Assembly: GCF_024171725.1 (NCBI RefSeq)
Contig: NZ_JAMTCG010000005.1
Coordinates: forward strand, 1 to 64,000
Direction: 5' to 3'
Length of the DNA stretch: 64,000 bases
Source of the DNA: Williamsia serinedens
GTDB taxonomy: Bacteria; Actinomycetota; Actinomycetes; Mycobacteriales; Mycobacteriaceae
Shown in pieces: positions 6,032 through 21,895 of this stretch. The first letter of the stretch is position 1. Each line of letters begins with the position of its first letter. The position numbers and the translations under genes were made by a program. The notes under the pieces are model-generated. The model had not been told where the DNA came from. It worked only from the letters and a program-made list of their open reading frames with translations, and did no database searches.

Positions 6032-6949
6032 ATGCCCATCGTCCTCGAGGACATGCTGCAGACCATCAAGGACCGCCAGTGGGCCCTTGCCGACATCGAC
6101 TGGGACGCACCGGGTGCCGAGCTCATCACCGACGGGATGAAGCCGAAGCTGAAGGCGTTCATGGCCGACCTCGTGTGGATCGAGAACGTCGGTGCCCGCG
6201 GGTTCGCCGCGCTCGCGAAGAAGGCGCCGGACCCGACGCTCGCCGAGATCTACCGGTACTTCCACGCCGAGGAGCAGAAGCACGCCAACGCCGAGCTCGC
6301 GCTGATGCGGCGCTGGGGGATGCTCGAGGACGACGAGGTCCCCGAGCCCAACATCAACATCCGCCTCGCGATCGAGTGGCTCGACCGCTACTCCGACTCG
6401 ATGTCGCTCTCGGTGCTCGGCACGGTCATCCCGATGCTCGAGGTCGCACTCGACGGTGCGCTGCTGAAGTTCCTCCTCGAGGAGGTCGAGGACCCGATCT
6501 GTCACGCGGCGTTCAAGAAGATCAACAACGACGAGTCGCGGCACCTCGCCGTCGACTTCTTCGCCCTCGACATGTTGGGACAGGCGCGGTTGCGCAAGCT
6601 GATCATCGAGTCGGTGGGCGCCGTGGCCAGCCCGGCCGTGCTCATCGGCATCCTCATGTACATCCCGCTGCTGAACAAGATGCGCGACAACATCGTCGAC
6701 ATGGGTCTCAAGGAGGAGCGCCTCTACGAGGCGATGCGGCGGTTCAAGAAGAACGGCGAGCGCGGTGCCGGTACCCGCTTGCTCACCTATCAGGTGGTGA
6801 AGACCCACGCGGGCTGGGTGATCGACCGCGGCCATCCGTATCACCTGTTCGCCGACGCGATGGTCACGGTGACCGACAAGTTCCCGCGGCGCCTGCTGAA
6901 GCCGCAGCCGTCGTGGTCCAAGGAACTCACCTACGAGCCCGTCGCATGA
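6032..6949 (+). CDS. Ferritin-like diiron-domain protein
   Basis: The 305-aa protein contains two helical metal-binding motifs typical of ferritin-like diiron proteins: FHAEEQKHAN near residue 80 and NNDESRHLAVDFF near residue 170. Similar mycobacterial proteins are usually annotated only as reductase or metal-dependent hydrolase. ATG 6032 has GGAG eight nt upstream. It lies 2 nt after the SDR stop and overlaps the monooxygenase start (ATGA). A second, separate diiron-type protein is encoded at 13293-14198. The reaction is unknown; oxidation of a fatty or hydroxylated substrate is an inference from context. Confidence 0.75.
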   Translation: MPIVLEDMLQTIKDRQWALADIDWDAPGAELITDGMKPKLKAFMADLVWIENVGARGFAALAKKAPDPTLAEIYRYFHAEEQKHANAELALMRRWGMLEDDEVPEPNINIRLAIEWLDRYSDSMSLSVLGTVIPMLEVALDGALLKFLLEEVEDPICHAAFKKINNDESRHLAVDFFALDMLGQARLRKLIIESVGAVASPAVLIGILMYIPLLNKMRDNIVDMGLKEERLYEAMRRFKKNGERGAGTRLLTYQVVKTHAGWVIDRGHPYHLFADAMVTVTDKFPRRLLKPQPSWSKELTYEPVA

Positions 6950-8460
6950 GCGGCCATCTCGACAGCACGAGCGATCACATCCATCAGGTCGCCATCGTCG
7001 GCGCCGGCTTCGCCGGCATCGGCACCGCCATCCGCCTCCAGCAGGCCCGCGTCGACGACATCGTCGTCCTCGAACGCTCCGACCGGCCGGGTGGGACCTG
7101 GCGCGACAACACCTATCCCGGTGCGGCGTGCGACATCCCGTCGCGCCTGTACTCCTACTCGTTCGCGCCGAACCCGTCGTGGAGCCGGACGTACTCCGGC
7201 AGCGCCGAGATCCTCGCCTACATCGAGTCGATGGTGGACCAGCACGATCTCGACCGGGTGATCCGGTACGGCACCACCGTCACTGACCTCACTTTCGACG
7301 AGCCCGCCGGCCTGTGGCGGGTCTCGGTCGACGGTGGTGAGACCGTGCTGGCCCGCACCGCGGTCATCGCGTCGGGGCCGCTCTCGACACCCGGCTTCCC
7401 CGACATCCCCGGGATCGAGGAGTTCGCCGGGAAGCGGATGCACAGCGCGGCATGGGATCACGACTACGACTTCGCGGGCAAGAAGGTCGGGGTCATCGGC
7501 ACCGGCGCGAGCGCCGTGCAGATCATCCCGGAGCTCGTGGAGCAGGCGGCCGCCGTCACCGTCTTCCAGCGCACGCCGGGCTGGGTGCTCCCGCGCTTCA
7601 ACCCCGAGGTCGGGGAGACGACGAAGGCGCTGTACCGCACGATCCCGGGACTGCAGTCCCTCGCCCGCGCGGCGTGGTTCGCCGGTCACGAGTCGGTGGC
7701 CGTCGGGGTGGTGTGGAAGTCGCCCGCCACCCGCGTGGTGGAGGCGGTGTCGAAGCTGAACATGCGCCTGCAGGTCCGTGATCCGTGGATGCGGCGCCAA
7801 TTGACGCCCGACTTCCGTGCCGGCTGCAAACGGCTGCTGATGACGAGCAGGTACTACCCGGCACTGCAGGCCGACAACTGCCGGTTGATCACGTGGCCCA
7901 TCGCACGGATCTGCGAGGAGGGGGTGCGCACCGCCGAGGGGATCGAGCACCGCTTCGATTGTCTCGTCTTCGCGACGGGTTTCGAGGTCTCCAAGCAGGG
8001 TGCCCCGATCCCCATCACCGGCCGGGACGGGCGGGTGCTCGGTGACGAGTGGAGCCGGGGCGCGTACGCCTACAAGAGCTTCGCCGTGTCCGGGTACCCC
8101 AACCTGTACATCACGTTCGGACCCAACTCGGGGCCGGGACACAGCTCGGCGCTGGTGTACATGGAGGCGCAGATCGACGCGATCGTGACGGCCGTCCGCA
8201 CGATCATCGATCGCGACCTCGCGGTGCTCGACGTCGAACCGGGCGCACAGCACCGATACAACGAGACGATCCAGCGTCGACTGCAGCGCACGACGTGGAA
8301 CTCGGGGTGCAGCAGCTGGTACCTCACCGAGGACGGCTTCAACGCCACCATGTATCCCGGATTCGCCAGTCAGTATGTGGCACAGATGCGGACGGTCGAT
8401 CTGACCCGCGACTTCACCGCCGTCGCGCGGCGGGAGGTGCCGGTCGCCGCGACCGGGTGA
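6946..8460 (+). CDS. Flavin-containing monooxygenase of Baeyer-Villiger type (MymA-like)
   Basis: The 504-aa protein has the FAD motif GAGFAGIG at residues 17-24, then RPGGTWRDNTYPGAACDIPS typical of FMO/BVMO enzymes. The Baeyer-Villiger fingerprint is present as FAGKRMHSAAWD, followed by the NADPH motif GVIGTGASA. It would insert oxygen into a ketone or aldehyde using NADPH and O2. Its ATG overlaps the stop codon of the diiron protein, so translation is probably coupled. The order lipase, SDR, monooxygenase recalls the mymA operon (Rv3083-Rv3085), which affects cell-envelope lipids at low pH; here a MerR-type regulator replaces VirS. Confidence 0.9.
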   Translation: MSGHLDSTSDHIHQVAIVGAGFAGIGTAIRLQQARVDDIVVLERSDRPGGTWRDNTYPGAACDIPSRLYSYSFAPNPSWSRTYSGSAEILAYIESMVDQHDLDRVIRYGTTVTDLTFDEPAGLWRVSVDGGETVLARTAVIASGPLSTPGFPDIPGIEEFAGKRMHSAAWDHDYDFAGKKVGVIGTGASAVQIIPELVEQAAAVTVFQRTPGWVLPRFNPEVGETTKALYRTIPGLQSLARAAWFAGHESVAVGVVWKSPATRVVEAVSKLNMRLQVRDPWMRRQLTPDFRAGCKRLLMTSRYYPALQADNCRLITWPIARICEEGVRTAEGIEHRFDCLVFATGFEVSKQGAPIPITGRDGRVLGDEWSRGAYAYKSFAVSGYPNLYITFGPNSGPGHSSALVYMEAQIDAIVTAVRTIIDRDLAVLDVEPGAQHRYNETIQRRLQRTTWNSGCSSWYLTEDGFNATMYPGFASQYVAQMRTVDLTRDFTAVARREVPVAATG

Positions 8461-12244: not shown

Positions 12245-13296
12245 TCGACGGCGCCGTCGAGGACACGGGTCCGGCAGGTCCCGCAGAACCCCTGGCGGCA
12301 GGAGTACGGCACCGACGGCCGTTCCCGACGGAGCGCGGCGAGAGTGGTCTCGTCGGCACCGACGGGGACGGCCGCCCCCGTCGAGGCGAGGGTGACGGTG
12401 AACGGGTGGCCGTCGACGACCGGTGGCGGCGCGAACCGCTCGTGGTGCAGCTCGACGTCGCGGACGTCGCGCAGGCGCGCCACCAGCGCGTCCAGCATCG
12501 GGATGGGCCCGCAGCTGTACACCGCTGTGCGCGGGGAGATGTCGGGACCGATGAGCTCGTCGGCCGTCGGGATGCCACCGTCGTCGTCGGTGCGGACCGT
12601 CACCCGGTCACCGTGGGAGCGGACCTCGTCGACGAACGGCAGCGAATCGCGGCTGCGGCCCGTGTAGACCATCGACCAGTCGAGGTCCAGGCGGTCGGCG
12701 AGCTGGATCATCGGCAGGATCGGGGTGATCCCGATGCCCCCGGCGACGAACCGCAGGTGCTCGGCGCGCGAGCCGAGACCCGGCACGGCGAGCGGGAAGG
12801 CGTTGCGCGGGCCCTTGATCGAGAGGACGTCACCGACGCGCAGGTCGTCGTGGACCTCGACCGAGCCGCCGCCGCCGTCGGGGATCCGACGCACCGCGAT
12901 GCGGTAGTAGGTGCGGTCGGTCGGGTCCCCGCACAGCGAGTACTCACGCATCCGGCCCGACGGCAGGAGCAGGTCGAGGTGTGCGCCCGCGTACCAGGGC
13001 GGCAACTGCCCGCCGTCGGGGGCCTCGAAGCGCAGCGCCACGACGTTCTCGTCCTCGGCGACGACCGTGCGGTCGACCAGACGGACCTGTGTCACACCGG
13101 TGTTGACGGCGTGGTCGTCGGCGACGTGGAGTCGGCGCACCACCCGCGGGTACAGGTGCGAGAACGCCGCGCCCACCACCCGCATCACGGGGTCGCGGCG
13201 GAACCGCCCGTAGAGGTGTGGAGGTGCCGTCTCGAGGTCGAGGGTCTCCAGGTCGGCGCGACCCTGTTCCGAACGCGACGGGTTCGTCGTGGTCAT
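12145..13296 (-). CDS. Ferredoxin reductase-type oxidoreductase with C-terminal [2Fe-2S] domain
   Basis: The 383-aa protein combines a FAD-binding domain (REYSLCGDP), an NAD(P)-binding domain (VAGGIGITPILPMI and YSCGPIPMLDAL), and a plant-type ferredoxin domain with the CxxxxCxxC...C cluster in SCRQGFCGTC and MLSCVS. It is the electron donor type used with oxygenases, desaturases and diiron enzymes. ATG 13296 overlaps the stop codon of the diiron protein encoded upstream, so the two are translationally coupled and probable redox partners (inference). Its 3' end overlaps the converging MFS gene by 100 bp. Confidence 0.93.
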   Translation of the reverse strand: MTTTNPSRSEQGRADLETLDLETAPPHLYGRFRRDPVMRVVGAAFSHLYPRVVRRLHVADDHAVNTGVTQVRLVDRTVVAEDENVVALRFEAPDGGQLPPWYAGAHLDLLLPSGRMREYSLCGDPTDRTYYRIAVRRIPDGGGGSVEVHDDLRVGDVLSIKGPRNAFPLAVPGLGSRAEHLRFVAGGIGITPILPMIQLADRLDLDWSMVYTGRSRDSLPFVDEVRSHGDRVTVRTDDDGGIPTADELIGPDISPRTAVYSCGPIPMLDALVARLRDVRDVELHHERFAPPPVVDGHPFTVTLASTGAAVPVGADETTLAALRRERPSVPYSCRQGFCGTCRTRVLDGAVDHRDTLLTTAERDAGWMLSCVSRAAGDSLTVDI

Positions 13297-14198
13297 CGCG
13301 CGGCCGCGCGGGTGGCCGGAGAGGACGCGAGGTAGGCGACGGCCTGTGCGGTGGAGCCGATCTCCTCCGGCCGGAACGACGGCCGGAAGTAGGAGAACGT
13401 CGCGAGGACGATGGAGCGCAGCGTCGGCAGCACGCCGGCCTTGGCGCCGCGGCGGTACTCGGTCCACATGGAGAAGTACGAGTACTTGCGGTACGGGTCG
13501 CTCTTGGCGATGAACCGGCTGCCGCGGTGCAGCAGCATGAGCAGCCCGAACAGGGCGACCCCCATCGCGCGGGCGCGGCGGATGTACCCGTCACCGAAGT
13601 AGGTCGCGACGTCGTGGGCGACGCTGCGGTGCTCGACCTCCTCGGCGCCGTGCCACGTGAAGAGGTCGGTCATCGCCGGGTCGGCGCCGTGCTCCCGCCA
13701 GGTGTTGTTCAACGCGAAGTCGCCGAGGATGGCGGTGTAGTGCTCGATCGCCGCGATGAGCCACAGGCGCTCGACGAGGTCCTTCCGGCGGGCCTCGGGC
13801 TCCCAGTTCTCCTTCGGGGCCAGCGCCTTGCGGAAGAGCCACCGCATCTGACGCTCGAAGGGCCGGGGATCGACGCCCTCGCGGTCGAGGAACTCCCACA
13901 GCGCCTTGTCGTGCGCCTCGGCGTGCATCGCCTCCTGGCCGACGAACCCGCGCATGGTCGCGGCGAGTTCCTCGTCGGCGACGAGGGGGAGCGCCTCGTT
14001 GTAGGTGGTGACGAACCATCGCTCGCCCTCGGGCAGGAGCAGGTTCAGCACGCTGATCACGTTCGACGCGATCGGGTGGCCGGGGATCCAGTGCAGCGGT
14101 GTGTGTTCGAGGTCGAACGCGACGTTGCGGGGCTGCAGGTGGACGGGCCCCGGATCGGCGATCTCGGGGGTGGCGATGGTCGGCTGCGGTCGGGACAT
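13293..14198 (-). CDS. Predicted metal-dependent hydrolase (PF10118-type, ferritin-like diiron)
   Basis: The 301-aa protein fits the PF10118 family. It has ExxH-type helices: GQEAMHAEAHDKAL near residue 95, an AAIEHYTAI helix, and WHGAEEVEHRSVAHDV near residue 195, which together look like a diiron site. One hydrophobic segment (ARAMGVALFGLLMLL) lies near residue 230. GAGGAG precedes ATG 14198. It sits between the EphD-like fusion (11-nt gap) and the ferredoxin reductase (4-nt overlap). Supply of electrons from the neighbouring reductase to an oxidation by this protein is the simplest reading; the family's hydrolase name is not experimentally grounded here. Confidence 0.8.
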   Translation of the reverse strand: MSRPQPTIATPEIADPGPVHLQPRNVAFDLEHTPLHWIPGHPIASNVISVLNLLLPEGERWFVTTYNEALPLVADEELAATMRGFVGQEAMHAEAHDKALWEFLDREGVDPRPFERQMRWLFRKALAPKENWEPEARRKDLVERLWLIAAIEHYTAILGDFALNNTWREHGADPAMTDLFTWHGAEEVEHRSVAHDVATYFGDGYIRRARAMGVALFGLLMLLHRGSRFIAKSDPYRKYSYFSMWTEYRRGAKAGVLPTLRSIVLATFSYFRPSFRPEEIGSTAQAVAYLASSPATRAAAR

Positions 14199-14209
14199 GT
14201 GTGTGCTCC

Positions 14210-15976
14210 TCACACCAGGGACGTACGGGCCATGCGGCGCGAGAGCGCCGGGACGAAGCGGTAGACGCGGTAGCCGACCGCGGCCTCGGGGGTCACGGGG
14301 ACCACGGCGCGGTTCTCGAGGACCGCGGCCAGGATCCGTCGGGCGACCTTGTCGGGGGTGTAGCCGCGACGGCGGTAGGCGGCGTCCATGCGGTCCTGTC
14401 GCCGCTTCTGCTCCGCGCCCGTCGATCCCGCGAACTCGGTCGTCGAGACGATCTTGGTGTCGACGATGCCGGGGCAGATCGCCGAGACCCCGATGCGGGC
14501 GCCGGCCAGTTCGGCGCGCAACGACTCGCTGAGCAGCAGCACGCCGGCCTTGGTGGCGGCGTAGGCGCCGAGCCCGCGCTGCGGTGTGAACGCAGCGGCT
14601 GAGGCGAGGTTGACGATGTGTCCGCCCTCGCCGCGCTCGACCATCTGTCGGCCGAAATACCGACTGCCCGTGGCGACCCCGATGAGGTTGATGTCGACCA
14701 GGCGTCGTATCTGGGCGTCGGTCGCGTCGAGGAGGGATCCCGCCAGTCCGATGCCGGCGTTGTTCACGACGATGTCGGGGACACCGTGCGCCTTCGCGAC
14801 CTCCTCGGTGAACGCCGCGAACGCCGCGTCGTCGGAGACGTCGAGGGGGTAGGCGTGTGCGGTCCCGCCGAGGGTGGCGATCGCCTCGACGGTGGTGCGT
14901 GCCCCGTCGAGGTCGATGTCGCTGCAGACCACCTCGGCGCCGTTGCGGGCGAACAGGATCGCGGTCTCGCGTCCGATGCCGCTCCCCGCGCCGGTGATGA
15001 CGGCGAGACGACCGGCGAGGGGACCGCGGGGACCGGTCACCGCGAGCCGGTCGAGTGACGGTGAGCCCGAGCCGGACTCGACCGCCTCGATGAACTCGGT
15101 CGCGCGGTCGGCGATGAGCTGTGGCCGGGAGTACGGCAGCCAGTGTCCCGCGGGAAGGTCACGGCGCCACAGGCGCGACGCGTAGCGGGGTGTGTTGTCG
15201 AAGATGGCCGCGCGCAGGGCGATGTCGCGGGTGTTGACCAGTTCGAGGACCGGCACGTCCGTGGACCCGGGGGACGGGTGGAACAGTCGCGGCCGGATGT
15301 TGGCGCGGTAGTACCGCAGGCCGGAGATCATGTCGCGGTGCAGGCTGGGCGCCACCGTGATGGCCGATGGCGACGTCCCCTCGACGGCCTGCAGGAACCG
15401 GCGCCACACCGGTGCCCATCCCAGGGCGCCGAAGAACACCTTCGGCACGACCGGCAGCTGGAACATCACCGTGTACGCCGACGAGGCGACCTGCGACAGC
15501 GCCTGCGCCACGTTCGACGGGGTGGGCCGCGACAGCTTCTCGCGAGCCCAGGTGCCGAGGTGGTCGAGGTTCGGGCCGGATATCGAGACGAACGACGCGA
15601 TCCGGTCGGCGGCACCCGGGGTGCACACCGCCTCCCATGTCTGCACCGACCCCCAGTCGTGTGCGACGACGTGCGCGGGGCCGTCGGTCACCGCGTCGAT
15701 CACCGCGAACAGGTCTCGGGCCAACTCGGGCAGCGCATACGGCGCGTCACCGGCGGGCGCATCGCTCTCGCCGTATCCGCGGGTGTCGTAGGCGACGACG
15801 TGGAACCGGCGTGCGAGCACCGGGGCGACCTGATCCCACAGGTGGTGGGTGTCCGGCCACCCGTGGACCAGCACGACTGTCGGGGCGTCCGGGACGCCGG
15901 CCTCGACGACGGCGAGACGGACGCCGCCGTTCTGCACGGTGCGCGGACGCCAGTCCATGGGTGTTCGGTCGGTCAC
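14210..15976 (-). CDS. ephD: EphD-like fusion: alpha/beta-hydrolase (epoxide hydrolase type) plus SDR
   Basis: The 588-aa protein matches the two-domain plan and length of M. tuberculosis EphD (Rv2214c). Residues 1-300 are an alpha/beta hydrolase with VHGWPDTHHLW, the nucleophile region VAHDWGSVQTW and the lid expected of epoxide hydrolases. Residues 310-588 are a classical SDR with TGAGSGIGRET, VNNAGIGL, the serine in NLASAAAF and the active-site pair in YAATKAG. EphD acts on mycolate-type epoxy lipids, which fits a mycolic-acid-producing host (inference). GTG 15976 is chosen because TAACGT ends 8 nt upstream and there is no ribosome site; TTG 15994 is an alternative. It heads an operon with the diiron protein and ferredoxin reductase. 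Confidence 0.9.
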   Translation of the reverse strand: MTDRTPMDWRPRTVQNGGVRLAVVEAGVPDAPTVVLVHGWPDTHHLWDQVAPVLARRFHVVAYDTRGYGESDAPAGDAPYALPELARDLFAVIDAVTDGPAHVVAHDWGSVQTWEAVCTPGAADRIASFVSISGPNLDHLGTWAREKLSRPTPSNVAQALSQVASSAYTVMFQLPVVPKVFFGALGWAPVWRRFLQAVEGTSPSAITVAPSLHRDMISGLRYYRANIRPRLFHPSPGSTDVPVLELVNTRDIALRAAIFDNTPRYASRLWRRDLPAGHWLPYSRPQLIADRATEFIEAVESGSGSPSLDRLAVTGPRGPLAGRLAVITGAGSGIGRETAILFARNGAEVVCSDIDLDGARTTVEAIATLGGTAHAYPLDVSDDAAFAAFTEEVAKAHGVPDIVVNNAGIGLAGSLLDATDAQIRRLVDINLIGVATGSRYFGRQMVERGEGGHIVNLASAAAFTPQRGLGAYAATKAGVLLLSESLRAELAGARIGVSAICPGIVDTKIVSTTEFAGSTGAEQKRRQDRMDAAYRRRGYTPDKVARRILAAVLENRAVVPVTPEAAVGYRVYRFVPALSRRMARTSLV

Positions 15977-15990: not shown

Positions 15991-16047
15991 CCAACTGTCA
16001 CACGTACGGCGGAAGTGCCGACCGCGGACTCGCGCGCCGCGGTCGCG

Positions 16048-17349
16048 TCAGACGGGGACGCTGATGACGTCGTCGTCGGTGTCGTACTCGAACAGCTCGC
16101 CGTAGCGACCCCAGTCGACGGCGGTCTCCAGTTGGCGACGCGCGCTGTCGGGACCGTGGCGACGTCGCAGCAGGTCCAGGAAGAACCCGCCCCGGAGCGT
16201 CCCGTGTGGGCTGGACCGCACCGCGGTGACGATCGCCCGCACCAGCGGGGCGTGTTCGCCCGCCTGCGTGGCGAAGATCTGCTTGCTGCGCTGGATGTCC
16301 GCGCCGACGAGGGCGGTGCCGAGGTCGGTGACCCCGATCCGCCCGTCGGTCACCTCGATGAAGCCGAGGAGCTCGGCCGCGTCCACCAGGGGCAGGAGGT
16401 CGCTGATGTCGAACGTCAGTGCGGAGGCGATCGACGCCATCGTCGGCTCGTCCTCACCGGCGACCATCGCGACCAGGCCCGCGATGCCGCCGACGGTCGC
16501 CTCGGGGAGCGGCTCGTCGCCGGGTGTCGCCGGGGACACGGGGGCGACCGGCGGGGTGCCCTCACCCTCGGTGAGCAGCCGGTACAGCGTGTCGACGGTG
16601 GACACCGAACCCACCGACCGCGGATCGCGGTGTCGTCGCCCCGGGACGGGGATGTCGGCGATGATCCGTCCGGGGTGCGACCCGAGCACGACGACACGGT
16701 CGGCGAGGGCGACCGCCTCGTCGATGTTGTGGGTGACGATGCAGATCGCGCGGGTGGGGAAGCGTGCCCCCTCCCAGAGGTCTATCAACTCCGACCGCAG
16801 GTTCTCGGCGGTCAACACGTCGAGGGCGGAGAACGGCTCGTCCATGAGCAGGACGTCGGGTCGCAGGACCAGGGCACGGGCGAAACCCACCCGCTGGCGC
16901 ATCCCGCCCGACAGTTCGCGGGGGTACGCCGACTCGAACCCGTCGAGGCCGATGAGGTCGATGGCGGCCAGTGCGCGCTCACGCCGCTCCTCGGCGGGGA
17001 CCCGTCGCGCGACGAGGCCGAGCTCCACGTTGTCCTGCACCGTGAGCCACGGCATGAGGGCGAACGACTGGAACACCAGGGCGGTGCCGGGATTGGCGCC
17101 GGTGAGCGGCGTCCCGCGGTAGCGGACCGTGCCCGACGTCGCCGGGATCAGGCCCGCGACGGTCCGCAGCAGCGTCGACTTGCCGGAGCCGGATCGTCCC
17201 AAGAGAGCGACGATCTCGCCCTCGTGGAGGGTCAGGTCGATGCCGTCGAGCACCTGCACCGACTGGCCCTTCGCGCCGGTGAAGGTGGTGTGGACGTCCT
17301 CGACCGTGACGAGGTCGGTGGCGACGGATGTGGGGGACGTGAGTGTCAT
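16048..17349 (-). CDS. ABC transporter ATP-binding protein, NitT/TauT type with C-terminal AAA-associated domain
   Basis: The 433-aa protein has a complete ATPase: Walker A GRSGSGKST near residue 52, Q-loop FQSFALMPW, signature LSGGMRQR, Walker B LLMDEPFSALD and the switch histidine in VTHNIDEA. Residues beyond 290 form an extra helical domain of the AAA-associated C-terminal type found on some nitrate/sulfonate-like ATPases. It is the last gene of an operon with the double permease (25-nt gap) and MgtC. No substrate-binding protein is encoded nearby. Because the operon begins with an M-box, a divalent cation or Mg2+-stress function is more likely than nitrate or taurine (inference). Confidence 0.9.
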   Translation of the reverse strand: MTLTSPTSVATDLVTVEDVHTTFTGAKGQSVQVLDGIDLTLHEGEIVALLGRSGSGKSTLLRTVAGLIPATSGTVRYRGTPLTGANPGTALVFQSFALMPWLTVQDNVELGLVARRVPAEERRERALAAIDLIGLDGFESAYPRELSGGMRQRVGFARALVLRPDVLLMDEPFSALDVLTAENLRSELIDLWEGARFPTRAICIVTHNIDEAVALADRVVVLGSHPGRIIADIPVPGRRHRDPRSVGSVSTVDTLYRLLTEGEGTPPVAPVSPATPGDEPLPEATVGGIAGLVAMVAGEDEPTMASIASALTFDISDLLPLVDAAELLGFIEVTDGRIGVTDLGTALVGADIQRSKQIFATQAGEHAPLVRAIVTAVRSSPHGTLRGGFFLDLLRRRHGPDSARRQLETAVDWGRYGELFEYDTDDDVISVPV

Positions 17350-17374
17350 GGGACGGCCCTGTCGGTCGGAGGGA

Positions 17375-19111
17375 TCAGGAGAGGGAGAAGCGTCGGTGGG
17401 CGAGGCCGTACAGGGGACGCCACAGCAGGCGGTTCAGGCCGACGACGAACGCGCTCATGACGACCACGCCGACGAGGATCCGGCCCCGGTCGCCGTGCGC
17501 GGTGGCGGCGGCGATGTAGGAGCCGAGTCCGGTCGCGGTGAGGGTCGTCGACCCGTAGGTGACGACCTCGGCGACGATCGACGCGTTCCAGGCGCCACCC
17601 GCAGCGGTGAGCGCTCCGGTGACGAAGTACGGGAACACCGCCGGCAGTGCGAGTCTCGTCCACCACAGTCGGCGGGGGAGCCGCAGTGACCGCCCGGCCT
17701 CGCGCAGGTCGGTGGGGATCGCGCCGGCGCCGGCGATGACGTTGAACAGGATGTACCACTGCGCCCCGAGACTCATGAGGACGATGCCGCCCCAGTCGAG
17801 ACCGACACCGGTCGCGACGAGGATCGCGGTGACCGGGGGGAACAGGAAGTTCGCGGGAAAGCTCGCGAACACCTGCACCACCGGCTGCGCGAACCGACCG
17901 ACGCGCGGGTTCAGCCCGATCCAGACCCCGACCGGCACCCACACCACCGTCGACACCACGACGATGACCATGACGCGCCCGAAGGTGAACAGTCCCAACC
18001 ACAGACAGTGCAGGACCTGGCCGAAGCCCGCGGTGTGGCCGACGAACGACACCACCTCGACGGCCCCGGCCGCCAGTGCGGCCGCGACGACGAGCGTGGT
18101 CGTCGCCGTCGCGGCACGGCGTGCGCGCGTCGGTCCGGCCAACGGGTACTCGGCGATGCCGAAGATGCCGGTCACCCGGTCGGCCGCGGCGACCACCGGC
18201 CGCATCCCGGCGGAGAACAGGTCGGGGACGCGGGAGCGCCGCAGGACGTCGAGCACGACACTGCGCGGGGCGTCGGCGCTCGCACTGTCCTCGGTACGGA
18301 AACGCTCGGCCCAGGCCGTCAGCGGCCGCCAGAAGACCGCGTTGACCCCGACGACCATGACGACCATCGCGACGATCGCCAGACCCACACGGCCGAGGTC
18401 CTCCTGGGCCGTCGCGGCGGCCACGTACGACCCGATCCCGGGGACCACGTAGGTCTTGTCGTCGACGGTCAACGCCTCGGAGGCGACCAGGAAGAACCAC
18501 GCCCCGCCGAAGCTCATCATCCCGTTCCAGACCAGCGGGATCATCGAGCTCGGGACGTCGACCCGCCAGAAGCGTTGCCACCGCGTGAGCCGCAGGTCCC
18601 GCGCGGCCTCGTCCAGGTCGCGCGGCTGGGAGACGAGGCTGTTGTAGAACGAGAACGCCATGTTCCAGGCCTGGGACGTGACGATCGCGAAGATCGACGC
18701 ACACTCCGGGCCCCACTGCGACCCGGGAAACAGCGCGATGAACCCGGTCACCGTGATCGACAGGAAACCCAGGATGGGGACGGACTGGAGGATGTCGAGG
18801 ATGGGCAGCAACAGCTTTCGCGCCCGCGGCAGCCGTGCGGCCGCTGTCGCGAAGGTGAAGGTGAACAGGACGGACACGCCCAGGCCGAGGAACATCCGCA
18901 GCACCGAACACGCGGCGTAGAAGGGCAGTCGCGCGGGATCGGTCGACACCGACGTCGCCGCGTGGGCGGCGTCGAACGGAGCTCCGAAGTCCGATCCGAT
19001 GCGCACGACGAGGTACAGCAACACCACGCCGCCCACCGCGACCGCCGCGTCGGCCCACCGTGGCCGGTGTGCGGCGATGCCCGCCATCCGAGCGACACCG
19101 ACGCCGCTCAT
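17375..19111 (-). CDS. ABC transporter permease with two fused BPD_transp domains
   Basis: The 578-aa protein contains two homologous permease modules in one chain. The first has the EAA loop DEAARDLRLTRWQRFWRVDVPSS near residue 168, the second has EAGRSLRLPRRLWWTRLALP near residue 490. Each is surrounded by five to six hydrophobic helices, and both end with similar YIAAATA-type segments. The two halves would form the complete membrane pore with a dimer of the ATPase encoded next. ATG 19111 overlaps the stop codon of mgtC by 4 nt. The fused form replaces the usual homodimer of the NitT/TauT family. Confidence 0.9.
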   Translation of the reverse strand: MSGVGVARMAGIAAHRPRWADAAVAVGGVVLLYLVVRIGSDFGAPFDAAHAATSVSTDPARLPFYAACSVLRMFLGLGVSVLFTFTFATAAARLPRARKLLLPILDILQSVPILGFLSITVTGFIALFPGSQWGPECASIFAIVTSQAWNMAFSFYNSLVSQPRDLDEAARDLRLTRWQRFWRVDVPSSMIPLVWNGMMSFGGAWFFLVASEALTVDDKTYVVPGIGSYVAAATAQEDLGRVGLAIVAMVVMVVGVNAVFWRPLTAWAERFRTEDSASADAPRSVVLDVLRRSRVPDLFSAGMRPVVAAADRVTGIFGIAEYPLAGPTRARRAATATTTLVVAAALAAGAVEVVSFVGHTAGFGQVLHCLWLGLFTFGRVMVIVVVSTVVWVPVGVWIGLNPRVGRFAQPVVQVFASFPANFLFPPVTAILVATGVGLDWGGIVLMSLGAQWYILFNVIAGAGAIPTDLREAGRSLRLPRRLWWTRLALPAVFPYFVTGALTAAGGAWNASIVAEVVTYGSTTLTATGLGSYIAAATAHGDRGRILVGVVVMSAFVVGLNRLLWRPLYGLAHRRFSLS

Positions 19112-19818
19112 CGGTCGCTCTCCTGCACGACCTGCAGGTCGCGGTCCCACCGCACCGCCCGCACGGACGGCTCCAGGCACAGCCGGGTGACCGCGGCCTG
19201 GATGCGGTCGTCGTCGCGGTGATCGGAGTGGACCTCCACGACGAGGTGCGCGGTGCCGTCGGACTCCGTCGCGTCGACGGCGCGGATCCGGGTGTCGCCG
19301 CCCGAGACGCCGTCGACGAGCATCGACCGCACGGAGCGGGCGCCGTCGGGCTCGGTCTCGACGCTGATCGTGTACGTCGTCGGGGACTCGTCGCCGGACT
19401 CCGGGTGGCGGTCGACAGCGCGTCCGAGCCACCGCAGCACGACGTTCACCGCGACGACCGCCACTGTGCCCATCGCGGCGACCGCATAGAGGCCCGCGCC
19501 GGCGAGCGCGCCGACAGCGGCCGAGCACCACAGTGTTGCCGCGGTGTTCAACCCGCGGACACCCAGACCGTCGCGCAGGATGACGCCGGCGCCGAGAAAG
19601 CCGATGCCGGAGACGATCTGGGCGGCGACGCGGGTCGGGTCCGCGGTGCCGCCGGAGAAGCCGTGCGCGGACAACACGACGAACAGGGTCGCGCCCGTCG
19701 CGACCAGTGCGTTCGTGCGCAGACCGGCCATCCGCGCGCGGTACTGGCGCTCGAAGCCGATCAGTGTCCCGAGGCCGAGCCCGCAGAGCAGGCGCAGCAC
19801 GGTGTCGAGTGTGGACAT
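19108..19818 (-). CDS. mgtC: MgtC/SapB family membrane protein
   Basis: The 236-aa protein has the MgtC pattern: RLLCGLGLGTLIGFERQYR at the N-terminus, then AGLRTNALVATGATLF, and the hallmark GIGFLGAGVILRDG with GLNTAATLW. About four to five helices are followed by an ACT-like cytoplasmic domain (residues 145-236). MgtC proteins act in survival at low Mg2+ and modulate the F-ATP synthase or K+ flux rather than importing Mg2+ themselves. ATG 19818 has GGAGG at 8-nt spacing; that GGAGG could pair with an upstream CTCC. The message starts with an M-box aptamer, and the ABC permease start overlaps its stop codon. Confidence 0.92.
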   Translation of the reverse strand: MSTLDTVLRLLCGLGLGTLIGFERQYRARMAGLRTNALVATGATLFVVLSAHGFSGGTADPTRVAAQIVSGIGFLGAGVILRDGLGVRGLNTAATLWCSAAVGALAGAGLYAVAAMGTVAVVAVNVVLRWLGRAVDRHPESGDESPTTYTISVETEPDGARSVRSMLVDGVSGGDTRIRAVDATESDGTAHLVVEVHSDHRDDDRIQAAVTRLCLEPSVRAVRWDRDLQVVQESDR

Positions 19819-19875
19819 GACGAGACCTCCGCAGGAGACGAGGACGGCCACGTGCCGGAGCGGAAGGAAACGCCC

Positions 19876-20035
19876 CCTCGTAAGACCTTTGGCACTTCAC
19901 GGCGTGGACCTCGACGGGTGTCGAGGAGCCAATCGGGGTCAACCCTTAAGCCGGGAAGACCTGTCCTGACCCGGGGCGTCTCTGGACGTTTGGGGTCGCT
20001 GGCGTGTTTCCGTGAAGGAGCCTCAGCGAACGACG
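19876..20035 (-). ncRNA. M-box (ykoK leader) Mg2+ riboswitch
   Basis: Read on the minus strand, the leader before mgtC carries the conserved M-box blocks in order. These are CTGAGGCTCCT (20026-20016), AAACGTCCAGAGACGCC (19991-19975), GGGTCAGGACAGG (19972-19960) and GAAGTGCCAAAGG (19898-19886). The ends TCGT and ACGA can pair as part of P1. This matches the known Mg2+-binding aptamer of B. subtilis mgtE and of the mycobacterial M-box leaders. About 58 nt separate it from the mgtC start; the mgtC GGAGG (19830-19826) can pair with CTCC (19837-19834), so translational control is possible. High Mg2+ should turn the mgtC-ABC operon off. Confidence 0.88.
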
Positions 20036-20281
20036 GCACCTTGCGAGGAGACAGTGAACACCCCCCGGCGACGGTGCGCAAGAACGCGTCAAGAGCGCGT
20101 AAACGCCACGTGCAGAACCACTCTCGATGTCGGAAAGTCCCGTAGCGGACAGGTCGGACAGACCGGTCGGTGTCGCGACGGCCCGCGATCGACGTGTCGG
20201 GGGCCACAGGCAGGGGCGTTCTCTCAGGTCCGATCGGTACGATCCGCGGCCGGGGAGGACGTCGAGCAAGGGGGAGACGAC

Positions 20282-21895
20282 GTGCGTCAGGCGCTGACGA
20301 CGGTGATCTGTGCCGTCCTGGTGATCGCCGGTGCCGCTGCCTGCTCGTCGCAGCAGGAGCCGCGGGTCACCGGTGACCGCCCGACCGCCTCGACGACCGT
20401 GGCGGTGCCGGCGTCGGTCGCGCCCGGAGATCTGGTCGTCGCCGCGGTCAGCTGGAACGGCCGTGGGCGTGTCTTCGCCCGCGGCGCGGTGCAGGCGTGG
20501 GCGGCCGGCGACCGGGCGGTGTCGGTGACCGGGTCGGGGGGATGGCGCAGCCAGGTGATCTACGGGATCGCGACGGGCGACCGCTCACCGATCGAGATCG
20601 AGGTCACCGACGGCACCACCGTCCGTGCCGACGTCCGGCGATGGTCCGGTGTCGACGCCACCACCCCGCTCATCGCACGATCGACGGGGGCGCTCGCACC
20701 CGTCCCGGGCGGCGGACGCGGGTTGGCGGTGTCGGTCGCCGCCTCGACGTCGGCCCCGTCGGCCATCGACGGCCGTGTCGTCGACATGTCGCGACGCACC
20801 GCCCCGGTGGTGGCCGCCGCCGGCGGGGTGACCGTTCAGACCCTGCTGTTCGCGCTCGGCCCGTCCGACAGGACGCCGCGTGACCCGCTCCGAGAACCGT
20901 TCGCGCCCACGAGCATCTGGAACACGGCCATCGGTGCCGACGCGGACTACGTCGACGCGCGGATGCCGGCTCGGCCCGGAGGGGACCGCTTCGCGCCGAT
21001 GCCGCAGAACGACCAGACGTCCATCATCGAGACACCCGACGCGCCGCTCACCGACGTGCGCTACAGCAGCGCGGGGTGGACCGGGCGCGACCGCTGCGAG
21101 GCCACGTCGCGCACCTTCTTCCGCGTCCCCATGCCCCGCGACTACGTCGTCCCGCAGTCGACGGACAACGAGGGCGCGAGTTGGTTGCTGCCCGGGAACC
21201 GCACCGTGCTGCAGAGCGCGCCGCTCGCCCGGTGCAGCCCGGGATCACCGGCGACGAGCCTCGACGTCTCCGATCCCGTCGACCTCCACGGTGACGGCGT
21301 CACCCGCGGACTCGGCGGGTCCGGTCTCACCGGGATGGTCGGGGCCCTGCGCCTCGGCGAGCTGCGCCCGTCGACCGCCGCGACCGGACCCCGTCACGCG
21401 CTGCGGGTCAACATCGACACCGACCGCCAGCTCCACCGCTGCCCGGACGGCGACTGCTTCCGGTGGCCCGCGTCGACGTCCGACAGCGACGCGGAGCGGA
21501 CCTACGGCAGCAAGGGGTCCGCGCCGTCGGCCATGAAGATGGGGGCGCTGCTCGCGATCCCGCTCGACGTCGACATCGAGAGCCTCGGACTGCAGACGGT
21601 CCCGGGACGACAGATCGCGTGGACGCTGCAGAACTACGGCGCCTACGTCGGTGACTCAGCGGCGTGCGCGTGCTTCGCGTTCGTGACCGAGAAGGGACCG
21701 TCGGGACGGTTCGCCGACCAGTTCCGCGACGACTACGGCTACCCGTTCGAACAGCGCATCTCCACCGGGTCGCCGTGGACGCGCGACATGCAGCGCATCC
21801 AGCAGGTTCTCGCGGTGGTCGACGACAACGCACCCGACGACATCGGTGGCGGCGGACTCCCCGCTCAACCGGCTCCGGCGCCCCTGGCACCATGA
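20282..21895 (+). CDS. Secreted lipoprotein of unknown function at the head of the polysaccharide locus
   Basis: I do not recognise the family. The 537-aa protein starts with a lipoprotein signal peptide (RQALTTVICAVLVIAGAAACSSQQ, lipobox cysteine near residue 21). A beta-rich domain (about 40-210) follows, then a second domain (about 225-520) with SIWNTAIGADADYVDARMP, RVPMPRDYVVPQS, DLHGDGVTRGLGGSG and a C-terminal part with paired cysteines (AACACF). No catalytic triad stands out. GTG 20282 is preferred over the frame's earlier ATG 20012, because AAGGGGGAG lies 8 nt upstream and the signal peptide begins there. It is co-directional with the chain-length and polymerase genes, so processing, export or anchoring of the polymer is possible. 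Confidence 0.65.
   Translation: MRQALTTVICAVLVIAGAAACSSQQEPRVTGDRPTASTTVAVPASVAPGDLVVAAVSWNGRGRVFARGAVQAWAAGDRAVSVTGSGGWRSQVIYGIATGDRSPIEIEVTDGTTVRADVRRWSGVDATTPLIARSTGALAPVPGGGRGLAVSVAASTSAPSAIDGRVVDMSRRTAPVVAAAGGVTVQTLLFALGPSDRTPRDPLREPFAPTSIWNTAIGADADYVDARMPARPGGDRFAPMPQNDQTSIIETPDAPLTDVRYSSAGWTGRDRCEATSRTFFRVPMPRDYVVPQSTDNEGASWLLPGNRTVLQSAPLARCSPGSPATSLDVSDPVDLHGDGVTRGLGGSGLTGMVGALRLGELRPSTAATGPRHALRVNIDTDRQLHRCPDGDCFRWPASTSDSDAERTYGSKGSAPSAMKMGALLAIPLDVDIESLGLQTVPGRQIAWTLQNYGAYVGDSAACACFAFVTEKGPSGRFADQFRDDYGYPFEQRISTGSPWTRDMQRIQQVLAVVDDNAPDDIGGGGLPAQPAPAPLAP

Follow-up and report, generated by a model that had tools for sequence, protein, structure and literature searches.

According to the relevant sections of PMC4072509, M-boxes are located almost always before corA, mgtA or mgtE, and the exceptions led to the NrmT class of Mg2+ transporters; the term ABC (ATP-binding cassette) is absent from the main text of that paper and from that of a 2022 review of Mg2+ transporters (PMC9276622). 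A characterised ABC-type Mg2+ importer was not found in the open-access literature either (subscription journals were outside the search), and an ABC-type transporter or importer of Mg2+ is named a single time in each of four open-access papers. The closest described system is the COG4986 ABC pair Bbr_0406-0407 of Bifidobacterium breve UCC2003, which has a YKOK/M-box in its expressed 5′ untranslated region and for which a part in metal ion homeostasis was suggested; in the portion concerned, PMC5746004 offers a remark on one genome, with neither a survey nor a claim of Mg2+ transport, and no other open-access paper naming COG4986 or COG4754 was found. The subject of this work is a 64,000-nucleotide stretch of Williamsia serinedens DNA (contig NZ_JAMTCG010000005.1, positions 1 to 64,000, referred to as the window), in which an M-box on the minus strand leads mgtC, a single-chain double ABC permease and an ABC ATPase. 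Its ABC pair is M-box-led as in B. breve, where mgtC is absent, and its M-box and mgtC are shared with the pe20-mgtC operon of Mycobacterium tuberculosis, which has PE/PPE genes where the window has the ABC transporter (PMC12810186, the part on this operon).

We propose, with a probability of roughly 0.65, that the permease and the ATPase form a binding-protein-free ABC importer of Mg2+ that is induced by low Mg2+. Membership of the pair in the Mg2+ regulon is near certain: the view of a preliminary description of the window, that the ABC system is part of the Mg2+ response, is supported by the score of the M-box against the Rfam model RF00380 and by the linkage to an M-box of 45 out of 68 sites of PF09821, the C-terminal domain of the ATPase. 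The aptamer of this Mg2+-sensing riboswitch (19868..20041, minus strand) matches RF00380 over the full length (1-169) with 119.9 bits and an E value of 3e-27, the gathering threshold being 44 bits, and a chance origin of the match is negligible. The M-box had been placed correctly on the minus strand, its 5′ end lying at 20041, that is, 6 nt beyond the earlier limit of 20035. A search of the genome of the window with RF00380 found no second M-box; the same genome has two CorA genes and no MgtE match.

All three genes are on the minus strand. The product of mgtC (236 aa, ATG at 19818 to TGA at 19108) is placed in the MgtC family by both PF02308 (129.3 bits) and the C-terminal PF21770 (49.4 bits). 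The ATG of the permease gene (17375..19111, 578 aa) overlaps the TGA of mgtC by 4 nt (ATGA), and the gene order and overlap noted at the outset are confirmed. In the permease, PF00528 (BPD_transp_1) matches two stretches, and the translation contains both EAA-type loops, just as two such loops in one chain had been described. After a gap of 25 nt follows the ATPase gene (16048..17349, 433 aa; PF00005 112.5 bits, PF09821 122.9 bits), whose PF09821 (AAA_assoc_C) domain at 16081..16431 is the only one found in the genome. Walker A (GRSGSGKST), signature (LSGGMRQ), Walker B (LLMDEP) and H-loop (THN) are intact in its translation, and an alignment of 45 ATPases shows little or no variation at the core positions of these motifs. 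The 4-nt overlap and the 25-nt gap suggest that mgtC, permease and ATPase are co-transcribed. The lack of a substrate-binding protein reported earlier also holds: Pfam detected no binding-protein domain in the two downstream genes and the divergent upstream open reading frame (ORF) that were scanned, and no such gene was found beside the pair in 14 plasmid contexts. These were read from 53 plasmid records with a match, and their gene tables are incomplete.

The linkage was established by searching three sets of genomes with RF00380 and PF09821: 298 from the order, 121 from the Bifidobacteriaceae and 200 from the Negativicutes (the class of Pelosinus fermentans in the NCBI taxonomy). A PF09821 site was considered linked if an M-box preceded it on the same strand by no more than 5 kb. 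The 45 linked sites compare with about 0.05 expected under random placement, a value derived from rough mean genome sizes with relatedness ignored; at 13 of the Bifidobacteriaceae sites, which seem to be closely related, the spacing is 2809-2810 nt. In 41 of the 45 linked loci no mgtC stands between the M-box and the permease, and the idea that the M-box serves mgtC alone was rejected for this reason. Such ABC genes without the escort of mgtC were found among both Bifidobacteriaceae and Negativicutes, and likewise at locus L042 of the order and in Enterococcus gilvus.

In the order, there were 61 M-boxes in 27 genomes and PF09821 above its cut-off in 10 genomes, five of these being linked: four loci have the arrangement M-box - mgtC - permease - ATPase, and L042 has M-box - permease - ATPase. 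In two unlinked loci (L047 and L048) the gene order is mgtA - mgtC - permease - ATPase, and the MgtA proteins score 947.7 and 965.3 bits (TIGR01524 cut-off 610.75); in a third (L046) an MgtA of 756 bits lies some 5 kb past the ATPase. At the other two (L049, L050) neither mgtC (by tblastn) nor an M-box was found, and the one neighbour scanned at each was an MMPL and a sulfatase protein. Orthologous pairs, to whose survey the preliminary description had pointed, have an M-box just upstream at 45 of the 68 sites, and others stand with mgtA and mgtC. Among the Bifidobacteriaceae, PF09821 exceeded its cut-off in 38 of the 121 genomes, and 27 genomes carried one M-box each (27 in total); 26 of the 38 sites were linked, the M-box lying 2.8-3.5 kb upstream. 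Each of these 27 M-boxes is followed on its own strand, after 74-752 nt, by a permease match; no mgtC intervenes, and the largest ORF lying between the two has 0-91 aa. One of the loci (G373) is at a contig edge, with the ATPase outside the view. The Negativicutes gave PF09821 in 20 of 200 genomes and 66 M-boxes in 52 genomes, with 14 of the 20 sites linked at 2.78-2.86 kb. Twelve of the linked loci (L177-L188) are arranged as M-box - permease - ATPase with 142-205 nt from the aptamer to the permease match; the remaining two are L136 and L140. Pelosinus G488, like the M-box-bearing Bifidobacteriaceae, has a single detected M-box, and this one leads the ABC pair. On a FastTree phylogeny of 137 permeases, M-box linkage changed at least 14 times (gain and loss pooled, no shuffled control) and 16 pure M-box groups were seen; six plasmid loci labelled unlinked in the tree yielded nothing in a scan with our own M-box model.

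Some M-box arrangements are recorded here in their own right. Eight Negativicutes genomes (G548, G558, G516, G528, G497, G504, G553 and G536) have tandem M-boxes on one strand, 254-312 nt from start to start, at loci other than that of the ABC pair. In L055 two M-boxes of opposite orientation, at 6632-6805 (minus) and 7050-7223 (plus), stand back to back with about 245 nt separating them, and a Streptacidiphilus genome (G305) has a similar arrangement. Streptomyces orinoci (G314; L078, L127) has eight M-boxes, of which two flank the L078 ABC pair; one of these two leads an Nramp gene. Other riboswitches were seen as well: fluoride and guanidine-I ones near the Lucifera ABC locus (L140:2657-2719 and 15466-15559) and a ZTP riboswitch near L044 (L044:49-129).

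The neighbourhood of the pair was further studied in named genomes, in the best 80 of at least 565 confirmed relatives. In 15 of the 80 loci an M-box of the same orientation was located upstream at a distance of up to 1.5 kb; four of the 15 were weak with our own model but gave 94.8-106.7 bits with RF00380. Within the fetched loci, MgtC was found in 19, MgtA in 9 and Nramp in 6, and a loose count that includes four M-boxes far off or on the opposite strand gives at least one Mg-linked feature in 35 of the 80. When neighbours were clustered, MgtC (19 loci) and a P-type ATPase cluster (13 loci) were the commonest after the ABC genes and shadow ORFs; nine of the 13 were taken as MgtA, eight being confirmed by TIGR01524 and L083 by tblastn only. 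Nramp ranks behind generic families found in 7-9 loci. The order mgtA - (mgtC) - permease - ATPase recurs in L047, L048, L062, L063, L067, L068, L072, L074 and L076, with TIGR01524 above its cut-off in all nine. On plasmids, the arrangement M-box - mgtC - permease - ATPase is present in Tsukamurella, and in Enterococcus gilvus an M-box of 132.5 bits precedes the permease with no mgtC between, the ATPase being short and devoid of PF09821. A double-permease homologue of 31.5% identity is encoded at OR846633.1:1989-3581; this 18.7-kb record bears the name "Enterococcus phage Efs 1-1-1" but is possibly host DNA. A Bifidobacteriaceae relative (G441, L142:396-3415) has MgtA-like and MgtC-like matches after the permease and the ATPase on the same strand; its MgtA-like ORF, cut in range, scores 576 bits, under the TIGR01524 cut-off of 610.75.

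Domains of CorA, MgtE, MgtA or NrmT are absent from both proteins: the permease has PF00528 only, and the ATPase ABC/AAA-type domains and PF09821. In NCBIfam, the permease is nearest to nitrate (ntrB) models, and for the ATPase SaoA is the best, with taurine and nitrate models close behind. None of the five permease models nor any of the best 25 of 187 ATPase models reached its cut-off (ntrB 81 vs 209 bits, ntrCD 191 vs 292, taurine ATPase 193 vs 357, TauC 38 vs 342). By sequence, CmpB and NrtB were the only matches of the permease in the PDB; for the ATPase, OppD-type Rv1281c came first, and NrtD and CmpD next. The extra C-terminal domain ascribed to the ATPase is real (PF09821). The NitT/TauT label is a fair one for the permease, whereas several labels, this one among them, would suit the ATPase. 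In Foldseek, the good AlphaFold2 model obtained for the permease (pLDDT 89.1, pTM 0.89) matched FbpB (9j4r) best, followed by CmpB and NrtB. FbpBC is a cation importer whose double permease is also in one chain, but the superposition is weak (TM 0.47/0.53, rmsd 9.5, 14% identity). The ATPase was modelled with a pLDDT of 89.1 and a pTM of 0.59. For its PF09821 domain no significant solved relative was detected by sequence; as modelled, the domain may consist of two helix-helix-hairpin units resembling tandem winged helices. The system resembles NrtBCD and CmpBCD in the permease fold and in the nucleotide domain of the ATPase, which is 36-37% identical in the Foldseek alignments. It differs from them in that the permease halves are fused, no binding protein was found and a helix motif has Asp/Gln in place of Gln/Arg. 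NrtC and CmpC ATPases carry a binding-protein-like domain, where the window ATPase has the PF09821 tail instead.

Asp106 (codon 18794..18796, minus strand), a candidate cation-binding carboxylate in the LDILQSVP motif of a predicted helix, is Asp in 65 of 67 aligned permeases, and Glu136 (codon 18704..18706, minus strand), also in a predicted helix, is Glu in all 67; E136, E212 and E515 are invariant among them. D106 occurs together with Q109 in the same 65 sequences, the other two (E. gilvus and E. albertii) having N106 and E109. These two permeases (L169:4783-6540 and L176:3831-5549) are paired with a short ATPase lacking PF09821, and the difference amounts to a carboxylate-amide swap one helix turn apart. 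The comparison used two reference sequences, CmpB and NrtB, and these have Q and R in the equivalent motif; they align to the second half of the permease, and the equivalence with its first half is our reading of the internal repeat. The kept carboxylate and the lost arginine would fit a cation better than an anion, which is suggestive and not a proof.

A mechanism may be proposed from these results. At high cytoplasmic Mg2+ the M-box aptamer would be compact and the message shut down. A scan for promoters and terminators found neither a promoter nor a terminator-like site between the aptamer and mgtC, and leader folds were not clearly better than those of shuffled sequences (z of -1.15 and -0.02). 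Since no intrinsic terminator was found, we favour an expression platform in which the ribosome-binding site of mgtC is hidden and Rho gains access; the Shine-Dalgarno sequence GGAGG read at 19826..19830 (minus strand) is the candidate target of translational control. For the M-box of M. tuberculosis, translational control with Rho has been shown (the section of PMC12810186 on this riboswitch), and we assume by analogy that the W. serinedens leader acts likewise. At low Mg2+ the leader would be open, and mgtC, the double permease and the ATPase would be made together. The permease chain would supply both membrane halves and two copies of the ATPase would complete a type-I ABC importer, which would pump Mg2+ inward with ATP and no binding protein. 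Asp106, in a predicted pore helix and replaced by Gln in nitrate/bicarbonate permeases, and Glu136 would be candidate ligands of the cation, with Gln109 where the relatives have Arg. In this scheme we infer Mg2+ as the substrate, as well as the direction, stoichiometry and residue roles of the transporter.

A number of observations weigh against Mg2+ import. The M-box regulon also contains genes that do not encode importers of Mg2+, such as mgtC, and Foldseek places the nucleotide domain of the ATPase nearest to the nitrate/bicarbonate proteins NrtD/CmpD. The linkage is incomplete: 12 of the 38 Bifidobacteriaceae loci have no M-box match (rescanning five of the 12 permissively with Rfam and eight with our own model found nothing), and six of the 20 Negativicutes sites are unlinked. 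Among the 80 related loci, 45 have none of M-box, MgtC, MgtA and Nramp (CorA and MgtE were not sought), including all the cyanobacterial and acidobacterial ones, and a Mg link is seen in only three of the 14 plasmid contexts, those of Tsukamurella, Enterococcus gilvus and Azospirillum B510. Genes pointing to other metals also occur. The Azospirillum B510 plasmid reads permease - ATPase - CDF - MgtC, and a CDF beside MgtC hints at other metals; a VIT-family gene, which we take to be of the Fe/Mn type, directly follows the pair on two Burkholderiaceae plasmids (L168:7922-8608, L175:6880-7569); FetAB lies near the Pantoea plasmid copy. ArsR-type regulators make up eight of the 145 neighbour ORFs; an attempt to assign them to loci gave ten candidate assignments, none of them ArsR.

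These points give room for other explanations. The pair might take part in the Mg2+ response without moving free Mg2+; its cargo could instead be a counter-anion, phosphate, a chelate of Mg2+ or some component of the envelope required at Mg2+ shortage. Anion movers are indeed the nearest solved relatives of the permease (by sequence) and of the ATPase (by Foldseek), and the operon also encodes MgtC, which is not known to import Mg2+ itself. However, the M-box-bearing Bifidobacteriaceae and Pelosinus G488 spend their sole detected M-box on the ABC pair, and relative to the two references, CmpB and NrtB, the permease has another residue instead of the Arg in the QxLRxVP motif and has gained an Asp. 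We regard such a cargo as unlikely.

Import of another divalent cation, Mn2+ or similar, tied to the M-box appears quite improbable to us. It would agree with the VIT, CDF, FetAB and ArsR-type neighbours in some lineages, with the ferric-ion importer as the best Foldseek match of the permease and with the Nramp genes in six of the 80 loci, a fold known for Mn2+/Fe2+; in mycobacteria, moreover, genes with a manganese-transporter annotation stand behind some of the M-boxes (PMC12810186, in the part concerned). The commonest partners of the pair, however, are MgtC and MgtA, and the six Nramp proteins reach only 76-100 bits against the MntH cut-off of 430. Those led by an M-box include the ones of L078 and L106, and M-boxes before Nramp-related genes mark Mg2+ transporters (as stated in the relevant section of PMC4072509); these six may belong to that NrmT branch. 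Finally, an ordinary nitrate, sulfonate or bicarbonate importer that just happens to follow an M-box-mgtC unit has very little to recommend it beyond the resemblance of both proteins to NitT/TauT-type ones and the annotation of the ATPase as nitrate/sulfonate/bicarbonate in 12 of the 14 plasmid records, and it is disfavoured because binding-protein genes, as well as nitrate and sulfonate genes, linkage to which the preliminary description had named as contrary evidence, are missing beside the pair in the 14 contexts (an amino-acid binding-protein gene lies about 4 kb beyond the ATPase in Azospirillum B510) and such families are missing from the 25 commonest of 147 among the 145 neighbour ORFs (rarer ones not shown), while no NCBIfam cut-off was reached and the permease is M-box-led without mgtC in 41 of the 45 linked loci.

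Around the operon, a 9-bp perfect inverted repeat with no T run (16019..16045, minus strand) just past the ATPase stop is a candidate operon end. The genes downstream on the same strand (13293-15967 of the window) are apparently a separate unit; they encode a hydrolase-SDR fusion, which the PRK05855 model matches with 797 bits, and a metal-dependent hydrolase of family PF10118. Upstream of the M-box lies the divergent ORF (20012..21895, plus strand), which matched no Pfam family.

The case is similar to that of NrmT, where an M-box before a family not known for Mg2+ pointed to a new class of Mg2+ transporter; NrmT is an Nramp-family carrier tested by complementation (in the corresponding sections of PMC4072509), whereas the system of the window is of the ABC type. 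Recurring behind the M-box in distant bacteria, the ABC pair is a strong candidate for a class of Mg2+ importer that has so far escaped recognition. We consider it somewhat more probable than not that the COG4986-type double permease and its ATPase represent a further, ABC class of bacterial Mg2+ importers beside CorA, MgtE, CorB/C, MgtA/B and NrmT, one that is binding-protein-free, uses a carboxylate within the membrane where its relatives have an anion motif, and has the sole detected Mg2+ riboswitch devoted to it in the M-box-bearing Bifidobacteriaceae. Given the annotations in the plasmid records, a conserved family may bear a misleading name. M-box-led copies are found in bifidobacteria, Nocardia, Tsukamurella, Negativicutes and Enterococcus, and in such lineages the pair may be a main high-affinity route for Mg2+.

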